NCBI RefSeq assembly: GCF_022760955.1
Contig: NZ_JAKTNU010000007.1
Span: 1 to 64,000, forward strand
Source of the DNA: Thermus neutrinimicus
Lineage (GTDB): Bacteria > Deinococcota > Deinococci > Deinococcales > Thermaceae
DNA length: 64,000 nucleotides
Reading direction: 5' to 3'
How positions within the stretch are numbered: position 1 is the first letter of the stretch; every line of letters starts with the position of its first letter. The position numbers and the translations under genes are program-made. Under the pieces are notes generated by a model that searched no databases, was not told the DNA's origin, and saw only the letters and a list, made by a program, of their open reading frames with translations. Of the stretch, positions 6,870-20,265 are shown piece after piece.

Positions 6870-7462
6870 CCACACCTAGAGGATTCTAGCAGCCCAAGCG
6901 GGCCAAGGCAAGCGGCGGGTTTTAAGGAGGGGTTGCGATTGGGGAGACGTTACCCGAGGCTATCGGTGGAAGGGAAGCCCAGGGCGGCGCCGGGGGAAGG
7001 CCGAGGTATCAGGGATCCTGGGGTGATGCTGGGCAAGTCCGTGGGGGCGGGCACCCGGATCACCGTGGACGGGATCCTCCGCCCTTTGGCTACCGGGAAA
7101 CCCCCGGGGAGGTTTGAGCCGCCCACCCCTGCCTAACGCCAGAGGGCCTTCTACGGGAACGTGGTTCCCAGCTTGCCAAGGCGTTTTCCGTGCTGACCGG
7201 TAAGGGCTTTCGGGTACGTAAACTTCCCGGATCCCGCCTGGGGCCCGGGGTGTTTTGGGAGGGCGTCTTCTCGCACGGGAAGATGGTGGGCATCCGCATT
7301 CCCTCCGCGAAGCCACTCGTAAACCTTACCCTGGAGGGCCGGGTCGGAAACAGGTATAGTTTCCCACCGGGGGAAACGGGCTTCTACATAAGCATGGTCT
7401 TATAGTAGTGCGCCCGGGCTCCGCTTGTGCCCTCCTTCACGGGGGCGTACCCTGGAGGCAAC
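6870..7462 (+). pseudogene. Gene-poor segment with possible remnants of a decayed gene
   Basis: About 590 bases between tRNA-Arg and tkt hold no intact gene that I recognise. Two adjoining plus-strand frames look protein-like. One runs to 7136 and includes GKSVGAGTRITVDGILRPLA. The other, entered near 7118 and running to 7405, includes TPEGLLRERGSQLAKAF and PGVFWEGVFSHGKMVGIRIP. Joined across one frameshift near 7130 they read like one product (..RFEPPTP-EGLLRERG..), which suggests a decayed gene of unknown function. A TATAGT hexamer at 7401-7406 could be the tkt -10 box. The tRNA-Arg 3' end sequence GTGCGCCCGG recurs at 7408-7417. Confidence 0.3.
7346..7364. repeat. Inverted repeat upstream of tkt
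   Basis: GGAAAC and GTTTCC are separated by 7 nt, and GGAAAC occurs again at about 7372. The site lies about 100 nt before tkt and might be an operator, but nothing ties it to a known regulator. Confidence 0.25.
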
Positions 7463-9418
7463 ATGACCGAGACCAAGGACCTCACCACCCTTTCGGTGAA
7501 CGCCATCCGGTTTTTGGCCATAGATGCCGTGGAAAAGGCCAAAAGCGGCCACCCCGGCATGCCCATGGCCATGGCGCCCCTGGCCTATCTCCTTTACCGC
7601 GAGGTCATGCGCCACAACCCCTTGGACCCCTCCTGGCCCAACCGGGACCGCTTTGTCCTCTCCGCCGGTCACGGGTCCATGCTCCTTTACGCCATCTTGC
7701 ATCTCACGGGGTATGACCTTTCCCTGGAGGAGATCAAACGTTTCCGCCAGTGGGGTTCCAAAACCCCGGGCCACCCCGAGTATGACCACACCCCGGGGGT
7801 GGAGGTGACCACCGGTCCCCTGGGCCAGGGTATCTCCACCGCCGTGGGCCTGGCTTTGGCGGAGAGGAAGCTGGCTGCGGAGTTCAACCGTCAGGGCTAC
7901 GAGGTGGTGAACCACTACACCTACGTGCTGGCCTCGGATGGGGATCTAATGGAGGGGGTTTCCGGGGAGGCCAGTTCCTTGGCAGGACACTGGAAACTTT
8001 CCAAGCTTATTGTCTTTTGGGATAACAACCATATTTCCATCGACGGCTCCACGGACCTGGCCTTCACTGAGGACGTTCTGGCGCGCTATCGGGCCTATGG
8101 ATGGCACACCCTGGCGGTGGAGGATGCCAACGACCTCGAGGCCCTCCGCCAAGCCGTACGCCTGGCCCAGTTGGACGAAAGGCCCTCCCTCATCGCCGTG
8201 CGGAGCCACATCGGCTACGGATCCCCCAAGCAGGACTCCCACAAGGCCCACGGGGAGCCCTTGGGCCCAGAGGCGGTGGAGGCCACCCGCAGAAACCTGG
8301 GCTGGCCCTACCCTCCCTTTGAGGTGCCCGAGGAAGTCTACCGGCACATGGACATGCGGGAGAAGGGAAGGGCTTGGCAGGAAGCCTGGGAAGAGCTCAT
8401 GGAGGCTTATGCCCGGGCCTATCCCGATCTCCACCAGGAGCTGGTGCGCCGCCTAAAGGGCGAACTCCCCTCCCTTCCCGAAGAGCCCCCGGCCTTTGAC
8501 AAGCCCGTGGCCACCCGGGCGGCCAGCGGCAAGGCTTTGGACGCCATTGCCCCCAGCATGCCTGAGCTTCTTGGCGGGAGCGCCGACCTCACCCCCTCCA
8601 ACAACACCCAGGCCCAGGGCATGGCGGACTTCTCCCCCCAGAATCCCACCGGACGGTATATCCATTACGGGGTGCGGGAGCACGGCATGGGAGCCATCCT
8701 GAATGGCCTCAACCTCCACGGAGGGTACCGGGCCTACGGGGGCACCTTCCTGGTCTTCTCCGACTACATGCGCCCGGCCATCCGCCTGGCGGCCCTCATG
8801 GGAACCCCCACGGTCTTTGTCTTCACCCACGACACCATCGCCTTGGGGGAGGATGGCCCCACCCACCAGCCCGTGGAGCATTTCATGAGCCTTAGGGCCA
8901 TCCCCAACCTCTGGGTGATCCGTCCCGCGGACGCCTACGAAACCTTCTACGCCTGGCAGGTGGCCCTAAGGCGCAAGGAGGGTCCCACGGCCCTGATCCT
9001 CACCCGCCAGGCGGTGCCCCTCCTTTCCCCGGAAAAGGCCAAAGGGGCCCTAAAAGGAGGCTACGTCCTGGAGGATGCGGAGGATCCTGAGGGGGTCCTG
9101 GTGGCCACGGGAAGCGAGGTGCACCTGGCCCTAAAGGCCAGGGCTCTCCTGGCAGAGAAAGGCCGCCGGGTGCGGGTGGTGAGCCTGCCTTCCTTTGAGC
9201 TCTTTGCCGCCCAGCCAGAGGAGTACCGCCGGGAGGTGCTTCCTCCAGGCCTCCCCACCGTGGCGGTGGAGGCGGGGGCTACCCTGGGATGGGAACGTTA
9301 CGCCCAAAAGGTGGTGGGTCTGGACCGCTTCGGGGCCAGCGCCCCTTACCCCGAGGTCTACGAGAAGCTGGGTTTCACCCCGGAGAGGGTGGCGGGGGCT
9401 TTGGAAGAACTCCTATGA
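7463..9418 (+). CDS. tkt: Transketolase
   Basis: The 651-residue enzyme transfers two-carbon ketol units between sugar phosphates and regenerates pentose phosphates in the CBB and pentose phosphate pathways. It has the transketolase start region ([22 protein letters not shown]), the TPP-binding motif from [10 protein letters not shown]-like ASDGDLMEG to [10 protein letters not shown], a pyrimidine domain with [10 protein letters not shown] and [15 protein letters not shown], and a C-terminal domain. Length is usual. ATG at 7463 follows a GGAGG ribosome-binding site; an upstream in-frame start has none. It is the first gene of an eight-gene run that includes cbbY and two unknown small proteins, and its stop overlaps comB (ATGA). 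Confidence 0.95.
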
Positions 9419-10104
9419 GGTTCAGGGTGGACCCCCTTCCCCGCCCCGGCGCGTACGGGGGAACGGCCATAGTGGTGGATGTGATCCGGGCCACCACCAC
9501 CGCGGGCTTGTACCTCAGGGCGGGGGCTAAGGCCCTGGTCCTGGCCCCGGGGGTGGAGGCGGCCCGGACCCTGCGCCGGGAGGGGGAAATCCTGGCTGGG
9601 GAGGTGGGGGGGCTTCCCCCGGAAGGGTTTGACCTGGGCAACTCCCCCCGGGAGGTGAATGGGGTGGTGGGGAAGACCGTGGTCATGGCCACCACCAACG
9701 GCACCCGGGCAGCCCATGCCGCCATGGGGGCTAGGCATATCCTCTTGGGGTCCTTGCAAAACGCCCAGGCGGTGGCGGAAAGGGCGGCGGAAATAGGGGA
9801 GGAGGTGCACCTGGTTTGCGCGGGGAAGGAAGGCCAGATGGCCTTGGACGACCTGTACGCGGCCGGGGTTATTGGAAAGCGCCTAAAGGCCCTGGGTCTT
9901 TCCCCAGAGGGGGAGATGGCGCAGCTGGCCCTTTTCCTGGCGGAAAACCCTCCCTTCCCCGTCCTTGCCTCCAGCGAGGCCGCCAAGGCCCTGGTGAGGG
10001 TGGGGCTTGGGGAGGATGTGGCCGAGTGCGCCCGGGTGGACGTGCATGGGGTTGTCCCCCGCTTCCTGGGGATGCGGGGTGAGGGCATGGTTTTTGGCGG
10101 GTAG
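9415..10104 (+). CDS. ComB-like 2-phosphosulfolactate phosphatase family protein
   Basis: This 229-residue protein matches the ComB family: N-terminal [13 protein letters not shown], central [30 protein letters not shown] and [19 protein letters not shown]. Founding members hydrolyse phosphosulfolactate in methanogen coenzyme M synthesis, a pathway not expected here. The start overlaps the tkt stop (ATGA) and the aldolase follows after 8 nt, so it is translationally coupled inside a carbon-fixation operon. A role on another 2-hydroxy-acid phosphate, such as 2-phosphoglycolate made by RuBisCO oxygenation, is my inference. The family call is firm, the substrate is not. Confidence 0.8.
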
Positions 10105-10112
10105 GGGGAGGG

Positions 10113-10922
10113 ATGCTGGCCACCTTGCGGGAGGTTCTGCCGGAAAAGGGCCGGGCGGTGGGGTCCTTCGACGTGGTGGGCCTGGAGTGGGCGGAGGCCA
10201 TCCTGGAGGGTGCGGAAACCCTGGGCCTTCCCGTCATCCTCAGCGTGGCTCCCCACCTGGGGGGGCCACCCCTAGGGGCCCTGGCCCCTGGGCTTAGGGT
10301 CTTGGCGGAAGGGGCCCGGGTACCCGTGGCCCTGCACCTGGACCATGGGGAGAGCCTAGGGGAGGTGGTGGAGGCCTTAAAGCTTGGGTTCACCAGCGTG
10401 ATGCTGGATGGAAGCCACCTGCCCCTCGAGGAGAACATCCGCCTGACCCGCCTGGCGGTGGAGGTGGCCCGGGCCTATGGGGCCACGGTGGAAGGGGAGG
10501 TGGGGGCGGTGCCGGGAGGCTATGGGGGGGAGGTTTCCCACGAGCCCGTGGCCTACACCGATCCCTTGGAGGCCAGGCGCTATCTGGAGGAAACCGGAGT
10601 GGATGCCTTGGCGGTGAGCATCGGCACCCGCCACGGCCTGCACAAGGGGCCAGTGCGTTTGAACCTTCCCCTTTTGGAGGAGCTGGGCCAGCTTCCCGTG
10701 CCCCTGGTCCTTCACGGGGCTTCGGGGCTCCGCCCGGAGGAGTATCGGGCCTTGGTGGCCGGGGGGATTCGTAAGATCAACCTGTATGCGGACTTGGCCC
10801 TCGAGGCGGCCTCCGTCCTGAAGAAGGTGGAGGCGGAAGACTACCTGGGCCTGATGGCGGCCATGAAGGAGGGCCTCAAGGACTTGGCCATGGCCCGGAT
10901 GCGGTTATGGTGGGGAAGCTGA
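10113..10922 (+). CDS. Class II fructose/tagatose-bisphosphate aldolase family protein (first copy)
   Basis: This 269-residue protein has class II aldolase marks: the zinc-binding HLDHGES, GFTSVMLDGSHLPLEEN, EGEVG, the second zinc His in SIGTRHGLHKG, LHGASGL and KINLYADL. It is shorter than the second aldolase of the window (fba, 307 residues) and lacks the insert before KINIDTD seen there, so it is closer to the GatY/KbaY-like side of the family. In the CBB cycle it might act on fructose- or sedoheptulose-bisphosphate. It overlaps the start of cbbY by 16 nt. The substrate is uncertain. Confidence 0.82.
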   Translation: MLATLREVLPEKGRAVGSFDVVGLEWAEAILEGAETLGLPVILSVAPHLGGPPLGALAPGLRVLAEGARVPVALHLDHGESLGEVVEALKLGFTSVMLDGSHLPLEENIRLTRLAVEVARAYGATVEGEVGAVPGGYGGEVSHEPVAYTDPLEARRYLEETGVDALAVSIGTRHGLHKGPVRLNLPLLEELGQLPVPLVLHGASGLRPEEYRALVAGGIRKINLYADLALEAASVLKKVEAEDYLGLMAAMKEGLKDLAMARMRLWWGS

Positions 10923-11662
10923 AAGCCCTTCTTTGGGACTTGGACGGCACTTTGGCGGAGACGGAGGAACTCCACCGGGAGGCCTTCAACCGGGCCTTCG
11001 CCCACTTCGGCCTTCCCCTTTACTGGGACCAGGAAACCTACGCCCGCCTCCTTTGGACCACCGGGGGTAAGGAGCGCCTTAAGCGGGCCTTGGAGGAAAC
11101 CCCTGGGGCGCCCAGGCTTTCCTGGGAGGAGATCGCCGAGGTGCACCGCTACAAAACGGATCTTTACCTGAGGCTTTTGCGGGAGGAAGGGGTCAGGTTG
11201 CGGCCAGGGGTGCGCCGCCTCCTGGCCGAGGCCCGGGAGGCGGGGGTAGCCCTGGTCCTGTGCACCACCACCAGCCCGGAAAACGCCGAGGCCTTTTTGG
11301 AGGGGGCGGGGCTTTCCGGCTGGTTCTCCTTGACCCTGGCGGGGGATGTGGTGGAGAGGAAAAAGCCGGACCCCGGCATCTACCTGCTGGCCCAAGAGCG
11401 CCTGGGTCTGGCCCCGGAGGAAGGGGTGGTGGTGGAGGACTCCCGCAATGGCCTTTTGAGCGCCCTGGGGGCGGGTTTTCCCGTGCTCATTACCCCGAGC
11501 CTCTACACCCTGGACCAGGACTACCGGGAGGCCACGGCCCTTCTTCCCCATCTTGGGGAGCCTGAGAATCCGGCCCCTGTGCTCCAGGGGCCGAGGTTTG
11601 GGGAGAGGGTGGTGGTGGACCTCTCCTACCTGGAGGAGGTGAGAGGATGGTGGAGCACCTGA
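10907..11662 (+). CDS. cbbY: CbbY-type HAD phosphatase (xylulose-1,5-bisphosphate phosphatase)
   Basis: The 251-residue product is a HAD-superfamily phosphatase with motif I DLDGTLAETEELHREAFNRAF, motif II CTTTS, motif III KKPDP and motif IV VVEDSRNGL. The run AETEELH...AFN and the cap motif TTGGKERLKRAL are hallmarks of CbbY. Known CbbY proteins dephosphorylate xylulose-1,5-bisphosphate, a misfire product that inhibits RuBisCO. Its place in an operon beside the RuBisCO genes supports this. It overlaps the aldolase upstream by 16 nt and the Dabb gene downstream by 16 nt. Confidence 0.88.
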   Translation: MVGKLKALLWDLDGTLAETEELHREAFNRAFAHFGLPLYWDQETYARLLWTTGGKERLKRALEETPGAPRLSWEEIAEVHRYKTDLYLRLLREEGVRLRPGVRRLLAEAREAGVALVLCTTTSPENAEAFLEGAGLSGWFSLTLAGDVVERKKPDPGIYLLAQERLGLAPEEGVVVEDSRNGLLSALGAGFPVLITPSLYTLDQDYREATALLPHLGEPENPAPVLQGPRFGERVVVDLSYLEEVRGWWST

Positions 11663-11955
11663 TCGTGTTCAACGCCGAGGCCAGTCCGGAGGAGGTTAGG
11701 GAGATGGTGCGGAAGGCCAGGGAGGTCCTGCTTCAGATCCCCGGGGTCTGTGGGCTTCGCTACGGGGAGGCCCTTTCCGAGGGGGCCCGCTACCGCTACT
11801 GGCTTTCCATCCTCTTTGAGGGTCCAGAGGTGGTCTCCTTCTACCGGGACCATCCCCTGCACGTGGAGTTCGCCGATACGGTTTTCCGCCCCATGGCCAA
11901 GGATCGCATCACCACCGACTATCTGGTGATGACGGAGATCCCATGCGGCAACTAG
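11647..11955 (+). CDS. Dabb (stress-responsive A/B barrel) domain protein
   Basis: A 102-residue protein starting MVEHLIVFNAEASPEEV, a typical Dabb-domain beginning (VxHxVxFxF...), followed by IPGVCGLRYGEAL and SILFEGPEVVSFYRDHPLHVEFADTVF, which fits the ferredoxin-like dimeric barrel with the usual HP(A/L)H motif. Dabb proteins are small, often dimeric, and mostly of unknown function. The start overlaps the end of cbbY and the stop overlaps the next gene by 13 nt, so it is part of the carbon-fixation operon. Its role there is unknown. Confidence 0.75.
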   Translation: MVEHLIVFNAEASPEEVREMVRKAREVLLQIPGVCGLRYGEALSEGARYRYWLSILFEGPEVVSFYRDHPLHVEFADTVFRPMAKDRITTDYLVMTEIPCGN

Positions 11956-12215
11956 CCCACCGGGAGGCGGAGGCCAGGGCCTTGAAGGTCCTGGTGGATG
12001 GGATAGGGGAGGGATTGGTCCTCGAGGGGGAAGGGGGGTACTACGCCCTCTATTACTTCTACAGCTGGTACGGCCGCAGGGCCCCGGACCCCGAGGAGAC
12101 CCCCGACTGGGTGGAGGGGCCTAGGCCTTCCCCCGAGGAGTTTCTGAGCCCTTACGACCAGGCCCGCTGGTTGGAGGACAACGGCTACACCCTCTTCATC
12201 AACGAGTCCAAGTAG
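11943..12215 (+). CDS. Small protein of unknown function, paralogue A
   Basis: I do not recognise this 90-residue protein. It has an N-terminal helix-like part (HREAEARALKVLVDG), a central aromatic strand YYALYYFYSWYG and a C-terminal part with PDWVEGPRPSPEEFLSPYDQA and an acidic end. No signal peptide, membrane span or metal motif is visible. It aligns along its whole length with the next gene, sharing the frames EAR-A-VL-DG-G-VL, LYYFY, P-W-EGP-P and SPY, so the two arose by tandem duplication. Its start lies inside the Dabb gene. Confidence 0.65.
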   Translation: MRQLAHREAEARALKVLVDGIGEGLVLEGEGGYYALYYFYSWYGRRAPDPEETPDWVEGPRPSPEEFLSPYDQARWLEDNGYTLFINESK

Positions 12216-12224
12216 GAGGTGGGT

Positions 12225-12494
12225 ATGGACTACTCAGAGATGCCCTACCAGGAGGCCAGGAAGCAGGCAGTGAGGGTGCTGGAGGATGGCTACGGGGATG
12301 CGGTGGTCCTGAAGGATGCCCATGGATACTGGGTTCTTTACTACTTCTACGGCTTCCAGGCTCCGCCGCCGGAGGCCCAGCCCCACTGGATGGAAGGTCC
12401 TTTCCCAGGGGAGGAGGGGATCCGGTCCCCTTACGAGATGCAGAAGTTTTTGGAGGAGCAGGGGGATTTCACCTACCTCAACGATGTAGACTGA
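12225..12494 (+). CDS. Small protein of unknown function, paralogue B
   Basis: An 89-residue paralogue of the preceding gene with HGYWVLYYFYGF, PHWMEGPFPGEEG and SPYEMQKFLEEQG. The ATG at 12225 is chosen because AGGAGG (12214-12219) sits 5 nt before it; the GTG at 12219 would overlap that site. Conservation of the YYFY and W-x-EGP parts between the copies suggests they form the functional core. I can name no family. Four nt separate its stop from the PsiE-like gene. Confidence 0.65.
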   Translation: MDYSEMPYQEARKQAVRVLEDGYGDAVVLKDAHGYWVLYYFYGFQAPPPEAQPHWMEGPFPGEEGIRSPYEMQKFLEEQGDFTYLNDVD

Positions 12495-12498
12495 AGCG

Positions 12499-12939
12499 GT
12501 GAAGCGGGACGCTTACCGGATCCTTCAGCTAACGGAAACGGTAATCTACCTGTTTGCCGGCTTTCTCATCGCCGCCGGGGCGGCAGTTCTTCTGTTATCT
12601 ACCCTGGTGGAAGGAACCCGGCATCTTCTCCATGGTGATTACCACGAGGTGGCCTTGGCTCTTTTGGACCGGGTTCTTCTTGCGCTGATGCTGGCGGAGA
12701 TCCTTTACACGCTCCTTCGCTTTGCCAAGGAGGGGACCCTCGAGGCCACCCCCTTCCTGGTCATCGGGCTCATCGCTGCCATCCGCCGCATCCTGGTTCT
12801 GACGGCGGAGGCCGTGGAGAAGTTTGACCTGGCGGACCCCGGCTTCATGGCGGTGTTGGCAGAGCTGGGGCTTCTTTCCCTGATGGTGGTGGCCCTGGCC
12901 CTTGCCATGCGCCTCGCTAGGAGCGAAGCAGGGCGATGA
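12499..12939 (+). CDS. PsiE-like small membrane protein
   Basis: A 146-residue protein with four hydrophobic segments, at about residues 14-38, 52-76, 85-103 and 118-140. The pattern with LLDRVLLALMLAEILYTLL, ATPFLVIGLIAAIRRILVLT and a C-terminal hydrophobic helix resembles the phosphate-starvation-inducible PsiE family. The biochemical role of the family is unknown. It is the last gene of the tkt operon. Its GTG start follows paralogue B by 4 nt without a strong ribosome-binding site. It runs into the opposite-strand cbbR-like gene with a 23-nt overlap. Confidence 0.6.
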   Translation: MKRDAYRILQLTETVIYLFAGFLIAAGAAVLLLSTLVEGTRHLLHGDYHEVALALLDRVLLALMLAEILYTLLRFAKEGTLEATPFLVIGLIAAIRRILVLTAEAVEKFDLADPGFMAVLAELGLLSLMVVALALAMRLARSEAGR

Positions 12940-13822
12940 GGGCCTGGGCCGCAGGGTTGGCCACCACCTTGGGGTGGACCAGCCAGAAGTAACGGCGGAT
13001 CTCCCCCACGGGCGCAGAAAGCCTTAGGGCCCTGAGGTTTCCCACCTTCAGGTTGGGCTGGACCACCACCCGGCTTACGATCCCCACCCCAGCCCCTGCC
13101 AACACTAGGCGCTTGGTAACCTCGTTGTTGTCCGTGTAGAAGGTGGGGTTCAGCTCCAAGCCCACTTGCTCAAAGGCCCGCTCGAGGGCCCGCCAGGTCA
13201 TGGAACCAGGCTTGCGCACGATGAGGGTTTCCTCCCTGAGCCACTCCGGGGGTATGATTTCCCGTCCGGCCCAAGGGTGGTCGGGAGGCACGATGAGGAC
13301 CAGCTCGTCCTCGTAGAAAAGATAGCGCTCGTAGCCTTCCCAGTGTTCTACCCCTTCCAGGACGCCAAACTCCACCTCTCCCATGAGGAGCCGCTCAGCC
13401 AGGCGCTCAGAGGAACCGCTTTCCACGTGAACCCGCACCCCTGGGTGGGCGTCGTGAAAATCCTTGAGGAAAAGGGGGAGCACGTAGGTGGCCATGGTGG
13501 TGGCGGCTCCTAAGGTGACCTCCCCCAGTTCCAGCCGGCCCATGGCCTGGGAAACCCGCTGGAATTCCTCCAGAGCTTGGACTACCCGCCTGGCCTCGGG
13601 CAAAAGGGCCTCCCCTACCCGGGAAAGCACCAGGTGCCGTCCCCGGCGTTCAAAGAGGGGATGCCCCACCTGCTCCTCCAGATTCCGCAGGTACTGGCTC
13701 ACCGCGGGCTGGGTGATGCCCAGGGCCAGGGCGGCCCGGCCCACGCCTCCTTCCTCCACCACCGTGACGAAGACCCGTAATGCAGCGGGGTTGGGCAGTT
13801 TAGCGTTTTTAGATATGAGCAT
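12917..13822 (-). CDS. cbbR: LysR-type regulator, CbbR-like
   Basis: The 301-residue protein has an N-terminal winged helix-turn-helix (LRVFVTVVEEGGVGRAALALGITQPAVSQYLRNLEEQVGHPLFERR) and a LysR substrate-binding domain in the rest. It is transcribed divergently from glpX-cbbLS with 64 nt between the two starts, the classical position of CbbR, which in other bacteria activates cbb operons in response to metabolites. The name rests mostly on position, since the fold alone does not define the subfamily. A -10-like TACCAT lies 6 nt before its ATG. Its 3' end overlaps the PsiE-like gene. Confidence 0.85.
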   Translation of the reverse strand: MLISKNAKLPNPAALRVFVTVVEEGGVGRAALALGITQPAVSQYLRNLEEQVGHPLFERRGRHLVLSRVGEALLPEARRVVQALEEFQRVSQAMGRLELGEVTLGAATTMATYVLPLFLKDFHDAHPGVRVHVESGSSERLAERLLMGEVEFGVLEGVEHWEGYERYLFYEDELVLIVPPDHPWAGREIIPPEWLREETLIVRKPGSMTWRALERAFEQVGLELNPTFYTDNNEVTKRLVLAGAGVGIVSRVVVQPNLKVGNLRALRLSAPVGEIRRYFWLVHPKVVANPAAQALIALLRS

Positions 13823-13828
13823 GGGCTT

Positions 13829-13880
13829 ATGGTACGCCCAAAAACATATGATTGCAATAATAAAACCGTCCCTCTAAGGT
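13829..13880. promoter_or_regulatory. Symmetrical divergent promoter of cbbR and the glpX-cbbLS operon
   Basis: The palindrome ATTGCAAT contains TTGCAA (13852-13857), which reads the same on both strands. Rightward, a 17-nt spacer leads to TAAGGT (13875-13880), 6 nt before the glpX ATG. Leftward, a 17-nt spacer leads to TACCAT (13834-13829), 6 nt before the cbbR ATG. Both genes would be leaderless and share one -35 element. The centre is AT-rich in a GC-rich genome. A CbbR site is expected here, but I could not fit a clean repeat of the TNA-N7-TNA type. Confidence 0.6.
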
Positions 13881-13886
13881 AAGCGC

Positions 13887-16327
<2,441 letters not shown>

Positions 16328-16345
16328 GGAAAGGAGTTGAGCGAG

Positions 16346-16771
16346 ATGCGGATTACCCAAGGTACCTTTTCCTATCTGCCGGACCTGACGGATGAGGAGA
16401 TCCGGGCCCAGATTGAGTACATCATCAAGAACGGCTGGGCGGTTTCCATTGAGTACACCGATGACCCCAGCCCTTACAACGTCTACTGGAACATGTGGGG
16501 CCTGCCCATGTTTGACCTGGAGGATGCCGCGGCGGCCATGTACGAGTTCCAGAAATGCCGCGAGGCCTTCCCCAACCACTACATCAAGATCAACGGCTAC
16601 GACCCCTCCCCCATGTGGCAGGCGCAAAGGGTTTCCTTCATCGCTCATCGGCCCAAGAAGGAGCCCGGCTTCCGCCTGCACCGGCAGCTTTGGAGCGATG
16701 GCCGCAGGCTCAAGTACACCCTCGAGGCCTACGCCACCATGAGGCCAGAGGGCGAGCGCTACCAGGAGTAA
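16346..16771 (+). CDS. cbbS: RuBisCO small subunit, red type
   Basis: The 141-residue small subunit starts MRITQGTFSYLPDLTDEEI, the form common in red-type enzymes, and has YNVYWNMWGLPMFD and INGYDPSPMWQ. The C-terminal part (HRPKKEPGFRLHRQLWSDGRRLKYTLEAYA) corresponds to the red-type beta-hairpin extension that fills the central pore of the L8S8 complex. ATG at 16346 lies 9 nt after AAGGAG; a TTG at 16337 would touch that site and is rejected. The gene lies 18 nt after cbbL and before a strong hairpin. Confidence 0.95.
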   Translation: MRITQGTFSYLPDLTDEEIRAQIEYIIKNGWAVSIEYTDDPSPYNVYWNMWGLPMFDLEDAAAAMYEFQKCREAFPNHYIKINGYDPSPMWQAQRVSFIAHRPKKEPGFRLHRQLWSDGRRLKYTLEAYATMRPEGERYQE

Positions 16772-16785
16772 ACCCCGGGATCTAG

Positions 16786-16809
16786 GGGCCCCGGCCCTGG
16801 CCGGGGCCC
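16786..16809 (+). terminator. Intra-operon hairpin between cbbS and cbbX
   Basis: GGGCCCCGGC and GCCGGGGCCC form a 10-11 bp stem around a loop of 2-4 nt. There is no U run after it and cbbX follows after 24 nt. It is more likely an mRNA stabiliser or partial attenuator, leaving cbbLS messages in excess over cbbX, than a full terminator. Confidence 0.6.
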
Positions 16810-16833
16810 ATTCCCAAAACCCTAAGGAGGGCC

Positions 16834-17727
16834 ATGCAGGAAACCCAAGGCCAAAACCTGGCGGTGGTCAAAAACCCCGAGATCGAAGCGGTTCTGGAAA
16901 CCCTGGATCGGGAGCTGGTGGGCCTTCGGCCTGTCAAGCAGCGGATCCGGGAGATCGCCGCCTATCTCTCCGTGGACAAGCTCCGCCGGGAGCTGGGGCT
17001 TACCGCCGACCGCCCCACCCTGCACATGGCCTTCGTGGGTCCTCCGGGCACGGGGAAGACCACCGTAGCCATGCGCATGGCCACCATCCTGCACAAGCTG
17101 GGCTACATCCGCCGCGACCACCTGGTGGTGGCCAGCCGCGACGACCTGGTGGGCCAGTACATCGGCCACACTGCCCCCAAGACCAAGGAGGTCCTGAAGC
17201 GGGCCATGGGGGGGGTGCTCTTCATTGACGAGGCCTACAGCCTCTACCGGGCGGAAAATGAGCGGGACTACGGCCAGGAAACCATAGAGATCCTCCTCCA
17301 GGTCATGGAGAACCAGCGGGAGGACCTGGTGGTGATCCTGGCGGGCTACAAGGACCGCATGGAGGAGTTCTTTGCCCTGAACCCGGGGATGCGCTCCCGC
17401 ATCGCCCACCACATTGAGTTTCCCCCCTATAGCGCCGAGGAGCTCTTCCAGATCGGCAAGCTCATGCTGGAGAAGCAGGGCTACCGCTTCACCGAGGAGG
17501 CGGAAAAGGCCTTCATGGAGTACCTGGAACGCCGCATGCGCCTTCCCAACTTCGCCTACGCCCGGAGCGTGCGCAACGCCCTGGACCGCTTCAAGCTCAG
17601 GCAGGCCTACCGCCTATACCAGAAGGCGGGGCCGGTGACCCCAGAGGAGCTCATGACCATCACCGCGGACGACATTTACGCCAGCTCGGTTTTTAGGGAG
17701 GAGAAGGAGGAGGAAGATGCCCCATAG
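16834..17727 (+). CDS. cbbX: Red-type RuBisCO activase CbbX
   Basis: This 297-residue AAA+ protein frees inhibited red-type RuBisCO by pulling on the large-subunit C-terminus. It has [19 protein letters not shown] at the N-terminus, Walker [10 protein letters not shown], the pore-loop region [14 protein letters not shown], Walker [13 protein letters not shown], sensor 1 in [10 protein letters not shown], and arginine-finger-like [16 protein letters not shown] clear TAAGGAGG ribosome-binding site precedes the ATG. Its end overlaps prk by 11 nt. Confidence 0.95.
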
Positions 17728-18682
17728 GCCTTTCATGTTAGGGATTGCCGGAGACTCGGGGGCGGGAAAGACCACCATCTCCGCAGGGATCGCCCGGCTT
17801 CTGGGTGAGGAGCGCACCACCAACATCTGCGTGGACGACTACCACAAGTATGATCGCAAGCAGCGCAAGGAGCTGGGCATCACCCCCTTGAACCCCGAGT
17901 GCAACTACATGGACATCATGGAGCAGCATGTAAGGCTTCTCGCCGAAGGAGAGCCCATCCTGAAGCCCGTGTACAACCACTCCACGGGTACGTTTGATCC
18001 GCCGGTCTACATCCCTGCCCCCCGGGCGGTGGAGGAGGAGGGGCGGCTTGTGCCCCGGGTGGTGATCCTCGAGGGGCTCCTTACCCTGTTTTCCCCGGCC
18101 TTGAGGAGCCGCTACCACCTCACCGTCTACTTGGACCCCGAGGAGGAGCTAAGGCGGGAATGGAAGGTAAAGCGGGATGTGGCCAAGCGGGGGTATACCC
18201 CGGAGGAGGTTATCGCCGACATCGAAAGGCGCATGCCCGACTCTCGGGCCTTCATCTGGCCCCAGAAGGAGCACGCGGACATCGTGGTGCGCTTTTACCG
18301 CCCCCCAGGCTACAACCCGGAAAACCCCAGCACCCTGAACGTAAGGATCGCCCTCAAGCACACCCTCCCTCGCCTGGACCTTTCCGAGGTCCTCCACTCC
18401 GCCTACGAGGACGAGGCCCTGATCCGCCTGGAAACCCGCAAGGAGGCGGACATCCTGGACATTACCGGCAACGTGACCCCCGAGCAGGCTTTGGCCTTTG
18501 AGCGCATAATCTGGGACCACCTAGGCCATCATGCGGAGCACTTCGACCCCAGCCTGGTGGGTACCTTCCTGGACAAGACTGGCCAGAGCTACCCCCTGGC
18601 CCTGACCCAGCTCATCATCGCCTACTATCTGGTTAAGATGCGGGAGCTGGCCATCGAGCGGGGACACCTGCGGGTGGCCTAG
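17717..18682 (+). CDS. prk: Phosphoribulokinase
   Basis: The 321-residue kinase makes ribulose-1,5-bisphosphate from ribulose-5-phosphate and ATP. It has a P-loop [45 protein letters not shown] and [11 protein letters not shown]. Length and these motifs are closer to the cyanobacterial/plant type than to the shorter proteobacterial enzyme. In the plant-type enzyme one redox cysteine lies inside the P-loop (GCGKS); here it is Ala. The second, in NICVDDYH, is kept. Thioredoxin-type disulfide control is therefore not expected. It overlaps cbbX; rpe follows after 10 nt. Confidence 0.94.
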
Positions 18683-18692
18683 GGGGAAAAGG

Positions 18693-19361
18693 ATGCTCAA
18701 GTTTGCACCCTCCATCCTCACGGCGGACCTGGCGAGGCTGAAGGACCAGATCGAGGAGGCCGAGGCGGCGGGGGTGGACTGGATCCACCTGGACGTGATG
18801 GACGGGGTCTTCGTCCCTAACCTCACCTTCGGCCCCCTTCTGGTGGAGGCGGTGCGGCGGGTAACCTCCTTGCCCCTGGACGTGCACCTGATGATCGTGC
18901 AGCCGGAAAGGTACCTGGAGGACTTTGCCCGAGCGGGGGCTGACGTGATCACCGTGCACTTCGAGGCCACCCTGCACGCCCACCGGGCGGTGCAGAAGGT
19001 GAAGGAGCTGGGGAAGAAGGCGGGGCTTGCCCTTAACCCCGCCACTCCCCTCGAGGCCTTCGAACCCCTCTTGCCCGAGCTGGATCTGGCCCTGCTCATG
19101 AGCGTGAACCCGGGGTTTGGAGGGCAGCGGTACATCCCCACCTCCACGGGAAGGCTTCGCCGCCTCAGGGAGATGCGGGATAGGCTAAATCCCTCCTGCC
19201 TCATCGAGGTGGATGGGGGTGTGAACCGGGATACCGTGGCCGAGGTGTACCGGGCAGGTGCGGACGTGGCCGTGGCGGGAAGCGCCCTTTTCAACAAACG
19301 GCCCGTGGCTGATAACCTGAAGGAGTTAAAGGAGGTGCTCTATGCCCTTGGTGATCGGTAA
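18693..19361 (+). CDS. rpe: Ribulose-phosphate 3-epimerase
   Basis: The 222-residue TIM-barrel enzyme interconverts ribulose-5-phosphate and xylulose-5-phosphate. Metal ligands and acid/base residues are visible in IHLDVMDGVFVPN, DVHLMI, MSVNPGFGGQ and IEVDGGVN, and the phosphate site in GSALF. Length is normal. It supplies substrate to prk just upstream. Its end overlaps the fba start by 20 nt. Confidence 0.95.
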   Translation: MLKFAPSILTADLARLKDQIEEAEAAGVDWIHLDVMDGVFVPNLTFGPLLVEAVRRVTSLPLDVHLMIVQPERYLEDFARAGADVITVHFEATLHAHRAVQKVKELGKKAGLALNPATPLEAFEPLLPELDLALLMSVNPGFGGQRYIPTSTGRLRRLREMRDRLNPSCLIEVDGGVNRDTVAEVYRAGADVAVAGSALFNKRPVADNLKELKEVLYALGDR

Positions 19362-20265
19362 GGAAGTCTTGGATAAGGCGCGGCGGGAAGGCTATGCGGT
19401 TCCCAGCTTCAACACCAACAACCTGGAGATCACCCAGGCCATCCTCGAGGTGGCCGATGAACTAAGGGCCCCGGTCTTCATCCAGGTTTCCGACGGGGCC
19501 CGGAAGTATGCGGGGATGGAGAACCTGGCCAACCTGGTGAGGGATATGGCCAGCCGCACCAAGGTGCCCGTGGTCCTGCACCTGGACCACGGGGCCGACT
19601 TCAAGATGGTGATGCAGGCCCTGAGGGCGGGTTTCACCAGCGTGATGATCGACGCCAGCCACCACCCCTTTGAGGAGAACGTGGCCGAGACCAAGAAGGT
19701 GGTGGAGGCAGCCCATGCGGTGGGGGTGAGCGTGGAGGCGGAGCTGGGCCGGCTCCAGGGCATCGAGGACAACATCCAGGTCTCTGAGGCGGAGGCCTTC
19801 CTCACCGACCCCGAGGAGGCGGAACGCTTCGTGGCGGAGACGGGGATCGACTACCTGGCCATCGCCATCGGCACCAGCCACGGGGCCTACAAGGGGAAGG
19901 GCCGGCCCTACATCGACCACAAGCGCCTGGAGGAGATCAGCAAGCGGGTGCATATCCCCCTGGTGCTCCACGGGGCCAGCGGGGTGCCCACCTGGCTTAA
20001 GGAGAAGCTCTTGGCCACGGGGGCTGAGCTCAAGGAGGCCACGGGCATCCACGACGAGGACATCCGCAAGGCTATCCCCAACGGTATCGCCAAGATCAAC
20101 ATCGACACCGACCTGCGCCTGGCCATGACCCTGGGGATTCGTGAGGTGGTGGTGGGAAACCCCAAGGAGTTTGACCCCCGGAAGATCATCGGCAAAGGCC
20201 GGGATTACCTGAAACAGGTCATTCGGGAGAAGTTTGAGCTGATGGGCACCGTGGGCCGGGCGTAA
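19342..20265 (+). CDS. fba: Class II fructose-bisphosphate aldolase
   Basis: This 307-residue zinc enzyme joins or splits fructose-1,6-bisphosphate and probably also sedoheptulose-1,7-bisphosphate. Marks are AVPSFNTNNLEITQAIL, HLDHGADF (catalytic Asp and zinc His), GFTSVMIDASHHPFEEN, VEAELGRLQG, AIAIGTSHGAYKG, LHGASGVP and GIAKINIDTDLR. It is a full-length family member, unlike the 269-residue aldolase of the tkt operon. It is the last gene of the cbb operon and is followed by two hairpins. Confidence 0.94.
   Translation: MPLVIGKEVLDKARREGYAVPSFNTNNLEITQAILEVADELRAPVFIQVSDGARKYAGMENLANLVRDMASRTKVPVVLHLDHGADFKMVMQALRAGFTSVMIDASHHPFEENVAETKKVVEAAHAVGVSVEAELGRLQGIEDNIQVSEAEAFLTDPEEAERFVAETGIDYLAIAIGTSHGAYKGKGRPYIDHKRLEEISKRVHIPLVLHGASGVPTWLKEKLLATGAELKEATGIHDEDIRKAIPNGIAKINIDTDLRLAMTLGIREVVVGNPKEFDPRKIIGKGRDYLKQVIREKFELMGTVGRA

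Follow-up and report, generated by a model that had tools for sequence, protein, structure and literature searches.

A tandem pair of small paralogous proteins tied to the Calvin cycle in Thermaceae: a candidate accessory factor encoded beside cbbR

Known RuBisCO helpers and the A-B pair

To our knowledge, RbcX, Raf1/Acm, and Bsd2 are small non-enzymatic assembly chaperones that occur only with form I RuBisCO. Known RuBisCO helpers have changed which RuBisCO could be expressed and engineered. Here, two adjacent small proteins, A and B, were analyzed in a window of 64,000 nucleotides (the whole stretch of DNA studied), which belongs to a 2.06 Mb draft genome of the genus Thermus in 42 contigs; by protein match, its named relatives are T. 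tenuipuniceus, T. altitudinis, T. igniterrae, and T. arciformis. The pair is dedicated to the Calvin (CBB) cycle, as RbcX, Raf1, and Bsd2 are. Unlike these chaperones, it has no match in Pfam, in which models for the known families are included, or in NCBIfam, and its predicted alpha/beta fold has no match in the PDB. CP12 is likewise very small, acidic, and tied to the CBB cycle, but A and B always occur as two paralogues without a Pfam match, and in place of the cysteine pair or pairs and disordered chain that are the hallmarks of CP12, the pair in the window has no cysteine and a predicted folded core with a pLDDT of 90. In common with RbcS, A-B is a small alpha/beta protein pair within the same predicted regulon; in contrast to it, the profile probability of a relationship is 0.5%, and a separate, true small subunit is encoded at 16337-16771. 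CbbY and Dabb are encoded by adjacent genes under the same operon and predicted operator, yet their families are unrelated to A-B, which is kept when CbbY or Dabb is lost. The reading favored here, at a probability of about 0.5, is that A and B would be dedicated Calvin-cycle components of Thermaceae, forming a heteromer that probably has no enzymatic activity and assists a core CBB protein.

The first demonstration of autotrophic growth in Thermaceae dates from 2026 and concerns T. brevis PS18 (PMC13019369); the study treats the transketolase (TKT) and the seven-gene cbb cluster of this strain. The main text of that paper makes no mention of the genes between TKT (KQ693_12605) and LysR (KQ693_12565); from the locus tags, we infer a gap that would fit exactly the seven genes of the window, and by gene count A and B would be KQ693_12580 and KQ693_12575. 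The earlier Thermus NMX2.A1 genome paper describes a 12-ORF CBB cluster, in passages that do not discuss the A/B proteins (PMC5015936). The RuBisCOs of Thermus constitute a separate form I clade (PMC12999727).

Genes, conserved sequence, and predicted fold

The initial annotation had described adjacent proteins of about 90 residues with a common layout, and the corresponding open reading frames were confirmed at 11943-12215 and 12219-12494. Gene A (11943-12215, + strand) encodes 90 residues with a pI of 4.5. Gene B, on the same strand, extends over 12219-12494 (91 residues) if read from the GTG at 12219, or over 12225-12494 (89 residues, pI 4.3) from the ATG at 12225; the ATG is probably the better start, because the GTG falls within the Shine-Dalgarno sequence GGAGGTG. 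The two proteins share 42% identity over 86 aligned residues (E 4e-23), a comparison of their family profiles returned a probability of 99.9%, and they are true paralogues. The YYFY/W-x-EGP core noted earlier was recovered as LYYFY...P-[D/H]-W-[V/M]-E-G-P across an alignment of 49 homologues of A and B, in which the D-G-x-G motif, a G-turn, LY(Y), P-[D/H]-W-[V/M]-E-G-P, and a near-terminal N are invariant in both members. Within A, the invariant residues are DG-x-GE, LY(Y), P-D-W-V-(E)-G-P, and a C-terminal NESK; within B, they are DG-x-G, PPP/PHW-x-EGP, and a C-terminal ND[VL]D, so that the tails differ by member. Both proteins are acidic throughout the family (pI 4.3-4.7). The dN/dS ratios are 0.12 for A and 0.15 for B, with 78 Thermus pairs for each; the two are under purifying selection and are therefore real genes.

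The pair had been said to match no known family, a statement that the searches bore out. Pfam gave no match for A or B in the window nor for any of the 49 homologues, among which no family recurs, the best chance match being DUF4224 (E 0.15). NCBIfam likewise gave no match, PHROG nothing meaningful, and a sequence search of the PDB no real match; antibody and reverse-transcriptase entries returned by the latter were discarded as chance. The AlphaFold2 model of A, built on the 49-row alignment, has a pLDDT of 90.5 and a pTM of 0.83, and predicts a helix, four strands, and a helix, followed by a disordered tail at residues 87-90. Foldseek comparison of this model found no fold match in the PDB (best E 0.76, TM about 0.3) and none among viral models (best E 0.19). 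By these searches, A and B constitute an undescribed family, and the predicted fold of A is without a known relative in the PDB. When the TAG between A and B was translated through, the read-through model comprised two domains whose halves are alike in fold, with a pTM of 0.50, at which the interface is not confident.

Three apparent relationships were considered and rejected. An RbcS-like origin had been hinted at by a superficial MAFFT alignment with few residues in common; hhalign gave a probability of 0.5%, no PDB fold match was obtained, and no RbcS match was present in Pfam among the 49 homologues. A relationship to Dabb (PF07876) was ruled out, with no Pfam match and an hhalign probability of 0.2%. 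The beta-beta-beta-beta-alpha fold of PUR-repeat/PC4-like proteins has an order of strands and helix similar to that of A-B and gave weak Foldseek matches to the fusion model (E 0.06, probability 0.14, TM about 0.2); it was discarded because these values are at chance level and because A and B are acidic, unlike nucleic-acid binders.

These features bear on a further explanation, in which A-B would act in the manner of CP12, binding phosphoribulokinase and perhaps also GAPDH to turn the cycle off when energy is short. The small size, acidity, and conserved flexible tails of A and B are compatible with it, as is the retention of prk in all pair-bearing genomes except one (G036), where the pair is decaying; a facultative autotroph would moreover need an off-switch. 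Set against this are the lack of cysteine in both proteins of the window, the folded core, the lack of a Pfam match, and the finding that A/B display no co-variation specific to PRK. Such a regulator is considered unlikely, yet it is a serious rival to the favored reading.

Two operons around cbbR and a shared palindrome

The A-B operon consists of co-directional genes at 7463-12939 on the + strand, in the order TKT - ComB - class II aldolase - CbbY - Dabb - A - B - PsiE-like. It opens with the transketolase (7463-9418), followed by a ComB family phosphatase (PF04029, 9415-10104), which is an extra copy specific to CBB genomes, a class II aldolase (FBA2, 10113-10922), and a CbbY-type HAD phosphatase (10907-11662). 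The best PDB matches of the last are Rhodobacter CbbY (4uar, the nearest solved structure, E 4e-53) and then the Arabidopsis homologue, and it is a genuine CbbY relative. The Dabb (stress responsive A/B barrel) protein follows at 11647-11955, and the PsiE-like membrane protein (12499-12939) comes after B. The frames of the aldolase and CbbY overlap, as do those of CbbY and Dabb by 16 nt and of Dabb and A by 13 nt; translational coupling is visible at the latter two junctions, in agreement with the earlier suggestion that the pair is coupled to cbbY and Dabb. CbbR, of the LysR family, is encoded at 12917-13822 on the - strand; its gene converges on the A-B operon, and on its other side it diverges from the RuBisCO operon glpX-rbcL-rbcS-cbbX-prk-rpe-fba (13887-20265, + strand), in which RbcS lies. 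The initial annotation had placed the pair in a Calvin-cycle operon next to RuBisCO. Its position in an operon with CbbY and Dabb beside cbbR was upheld; this is not, however, the RuBisCO operon, which begins at 13887 beyond cbbR.

The composition of the A-B operon varies between lineages. In Meiothermus-type modules, a DeoC/LacD-type aldolase after B (10478-11308 in locus L038) replaces the class II aldolase of Thermus (10113-10922), a non-orthologous swap within the operon. The ComB-family (2-phosphosulfolactate phosphatase) gene of the CBB module is a second copy, found in RuBisCO genomes, the universal copy being located elsewhere; the former may act on phosphoglycolate or another by-product of RuBisCO. 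Most Thermus loci have the PsiE-like gene directly after B; Meiothermus-type loci do not.

The PsiE-like neighbor invites the explanation that A-B serves autotrophy only loosely, in inorganic carbon, redox, or lithotrophy together with the PsiE-like protein, and has nothing but regulation in common with RuBisCO. In Thermaceae, genes for lithotrophy are indeed frequent companions of CBB genes (PMC13019369). However, PsiE is missing or broken in some Thermus besides being absent from the Meiothermus-type modules, and Sox genes are present in Thermus species without a CBB cycle (PMC13019369), whereas intact A-B is never found without it. The odds of this explanation are poor.

A palindrome, ATAAGCATGGTCTTAT, is located at 7388-7403, 75 bp before TKT, and represents the predicted CbbR operator of the A-B operon; a second copy, ATGAGCATGGGCTTAT, lies at 13815-13830 in the divergent promoter of cbbR and glpX. 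The joint pattern, which was drawn from these two places, occurs only there in the genome, and a loose version has three matches in the window, all at the two sites, compared with 0.05 expected. Across both lineages, the consensus before TKT and before glpX is ATAAG-N6/7-TTAT. In Meiothermus-type genomes, ATAAG-N6-TTAT precedes TKT in 11/11 cases (9 exact) and glpX in 10/10 (all exact), against an expected 0.2-0.3; in Thermus, with a spacer of 7 and within one mismatch, the figures are 13/13 for TKT and 10/14 for glpX, against 0.2-0.5. The element is common to both promoters even where the A-B and RuBisCO loci are unlinked. In four genomes (G038, G032, G033, and G030), it is found at both and nowhere else in the stretches of roughly 20 kb scanned. 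The two operons thus share one operator, preceding TKT and glpX in both lineages, and are predicted to belong to one CbbR regulon. CbbR, given its adjacency, is very probably the protein that binds the palindrome, and by all signs A and B would be switched on together with RuBisCO. As a separate observation, the spacer of the predicted operator is 7 in Thermus and 6 in the Meiothermus type, changed at both promoters of each lineage, which would make a neat case of co-evolution between regulator and operator.

Co-retention with RuBisCO and proposed role

Among the 111 Deinococcota genomes sampled (designated by G-numbers; other phyla were weakly sampled), the family is confined to Thermaceae and always occurs as the A-B tandem. 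Form I RbcL was found in 25/111, and each of these 25 carries the tandem. A 26th CBB genome, G043, also has the pair; its contig C64 holds cbbX-prk-rpe-fba, with cbbX at the very start, and the missing form I RbcL is an assembly gap, the contig being cut just before rbcLS. The pair is accordingly present in 26/26 genomes with the CBB cycle, while no intact pair occurs in the other Deinococcota, and A and B are always co-encoded with their distinct tails, NESK and ND[VL]D. Across these 111 genomes, the family strictly depends on the CBB cycle. The initial annotation had specified beforehand that its proposal would be countered by homologues common in genomes lacking RuBisCO or by a confident match to some family of known other function; neither was found in the 111 Deinococcota or in the family searches. 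Its interpretation is supported in part, as regards the undescribed family and the dedicated tie to the CBB cycle, which proved much stronger than could be told from the sequence alone; the heterodimer and its action on RuBisCO or Prk stand as predictions.

One genome, G036, bears the pair without form I RbcL or a CBB-type prk. The module there is in decay: TKT has lost residues 33-633, ComB carries an internal deletion, no Dabb gene remains, A is frameshifted, and B is broken. The frames of CbbY and DUF3422 still read through. This decaying CBB regeneration module is seen at 9000-11000 of locus L043 (G036:C163). Weak A/B matches in four other Deinococcota genomes (E 0.01-0.04) were rejected; the two ORFs that were read, in G009 and G011, contain YVEGP by chance and resemble what we take to be MltG-type transglycosylases. 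A tblastn search of plasmids (7.3 Gb), of which 360 records carry RuBisCO-family genes, matched A/B only in Allomeiothermus silvanus; a scan of viral contigs found no relative, and the scan of genome contigs beyond Deinococcota detects close relatives only. Three genomes (G075, G079, and G109) have a distant RbcL (E about 1e-65) and no pair; outside Thermaceae, Deinococcota carry only form III RuBisCO, without prk (PMC13019369).

On an rpoB tree of 49 Thermaceae, the RuBisCO state changes 13 times, with 10 changes forced by well-supported branches. In 10 independent pairs, A-B follows RuBisCO in 9.5 on average and never does the opposite (sign test, p about 0.002). Because the two operons adjoin in Thermus, one deletion could remove both, and joint gain or loss of this kind would suit the explanation that A and B are passengers, kept by linkage to laterally transferred RuBisCO genes. 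That explanation is already contradicted, and its chance is very small. The dN/dS values of 0.12-0.15 indicate selection, the neighbors decay where A-B does not, and the pair is co-retained in Meiothermus-type genomes with unlinked loci. In G038, G032, and G033, the A-B operon is on a different contig from rbcLS, tens of kilobases or more away, and the pair is found with TKT-ComB-CbbY-Dabb rather than with rbcLS; in G037, nested beside G030 and G033, both unlinked loci have been lost.

A and B are intact in every CBB genome except G064, whose assembly is 65% complete and shows A frameshifted close to its end. The neighbors are kept less strictly. CbbY has a deletion of about 290 nt in G047 and a frameshift in G045; three genomes (G045, G048, and G050) have a broken ComB; G027 and G029, which keep A and B, have no Dabb; TKT is missing from the module of G071; and PsiE is affected as described above. 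Some of these frameshifts could be sequencing errors, although the deletions and the absences of Dabb are hard to explain in that way. Only rbcL, rbcS, cbbX, prk, and the remainder of that operon are retained as strictly as A/B. Since A/B are kept while CbbY, ComB, or Dabb is lost, the partner would, by elimination, be a core CBB protein and not CbbY or Dabb; this pattern of retention is the principal argument for such a partner.

The alternative that must be weighed here is that A-B acts within the group of CbbY, ComB, and Dabb in metabolite repair or small-molecule binding, for example by binding or clearing xylulose-1,5-bisphosphate, a misfire sugar of RuBisCO. Wherever these genes exist, they keep the order CbbY-Dabb-A-B and their frames overlap; CbbY is a real CbbY relative; and in Meiothermus-type genomes, A/B distances track those of CbbY and Dabb best (r 0.83-0.89). 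However, A/B remain intact despite the CbbY deletion in G047 and the absence of Dabb in G027 and G029, in G036, which has no RuBisCO, they have survived less well than CbbY has, and they have no enzyme fold or family match. On balance, membership in such a repair group is unlikely, yet it too is a serious rival.

The evolutionary distances of A and B correlate at r 0.63-0.92 with those of CbbY, Dabb, and TKT, with no such tracking of RbcL (r 0.11-0.23), and in the mirror-tree comparison no single partner stands out for A/B, because RbcL is too conserved and laterally mobile. In G045, RbcL has been replaced by recombination and the A gene has not. The RbcL sequences of G045 and G047 (L120 and L118) are 99% identical to each other and 91-95% identical to those of every other Thermus, among them G046, which is the sister of G045 on the rpoB tree, and represent a recombined RuBisCO. 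Both of these genomes carry independent CbbY lesions, the frameshift and the deletion given above, as if this RuBisCO variant needs CbbY less.

Returning to A/B as a dedicated accessory factor, the favored sequence of events would be as follows. The operon, under putative CbbR control, would produce A and B as two paralogous alpha/beta subunits that assemble into a small acidic heteromer. Such a heteromer is fairly probable, as suggested by the two distinct invariant tails and the unbroken tandem retention. The lack of an enzyme family or fold, the small size, and the acidic charge suggest that its action on a core CBB protein is accessory rather than enzymatic, for which the odds are somewhat better than even. 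RuBisCO would be the first candidate partner, which the heteromer would help to assemble, maintain, or protect at high temperature; CbbX or phosphoribulokinase would come second. The choice of RuBisCO is tentative and falls a little short of even odds, because RbcL of G045 was replaced without A and because A/B distances follow CbbY, Dabb, and TKT; the unlinked A-B loci and this tracking would be compatible, too, with a partner that belongs to the regeneration or repair module. The docking peptides would most likely be the invariant and apparently disordered C-terminal tails. A bolder version, in which A-B would be an essential factor for the handling of RuBisCO, hitherto unknown, of a new small fold and restricted to the Thermus form I clade, is possible yet doubtful; the heteromer would then act in assembly or protection so that RuBisCO works at high growth temperatures.

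A and B are tied to RuBisCO as strictly as prk or cbbX and have no known fold relative. The family suggests that the known set of components for thermophilic CO2 fixation lacks a member, and a RuBisCO helper from a thermophile, if true, would be directly testable and possibly useful.
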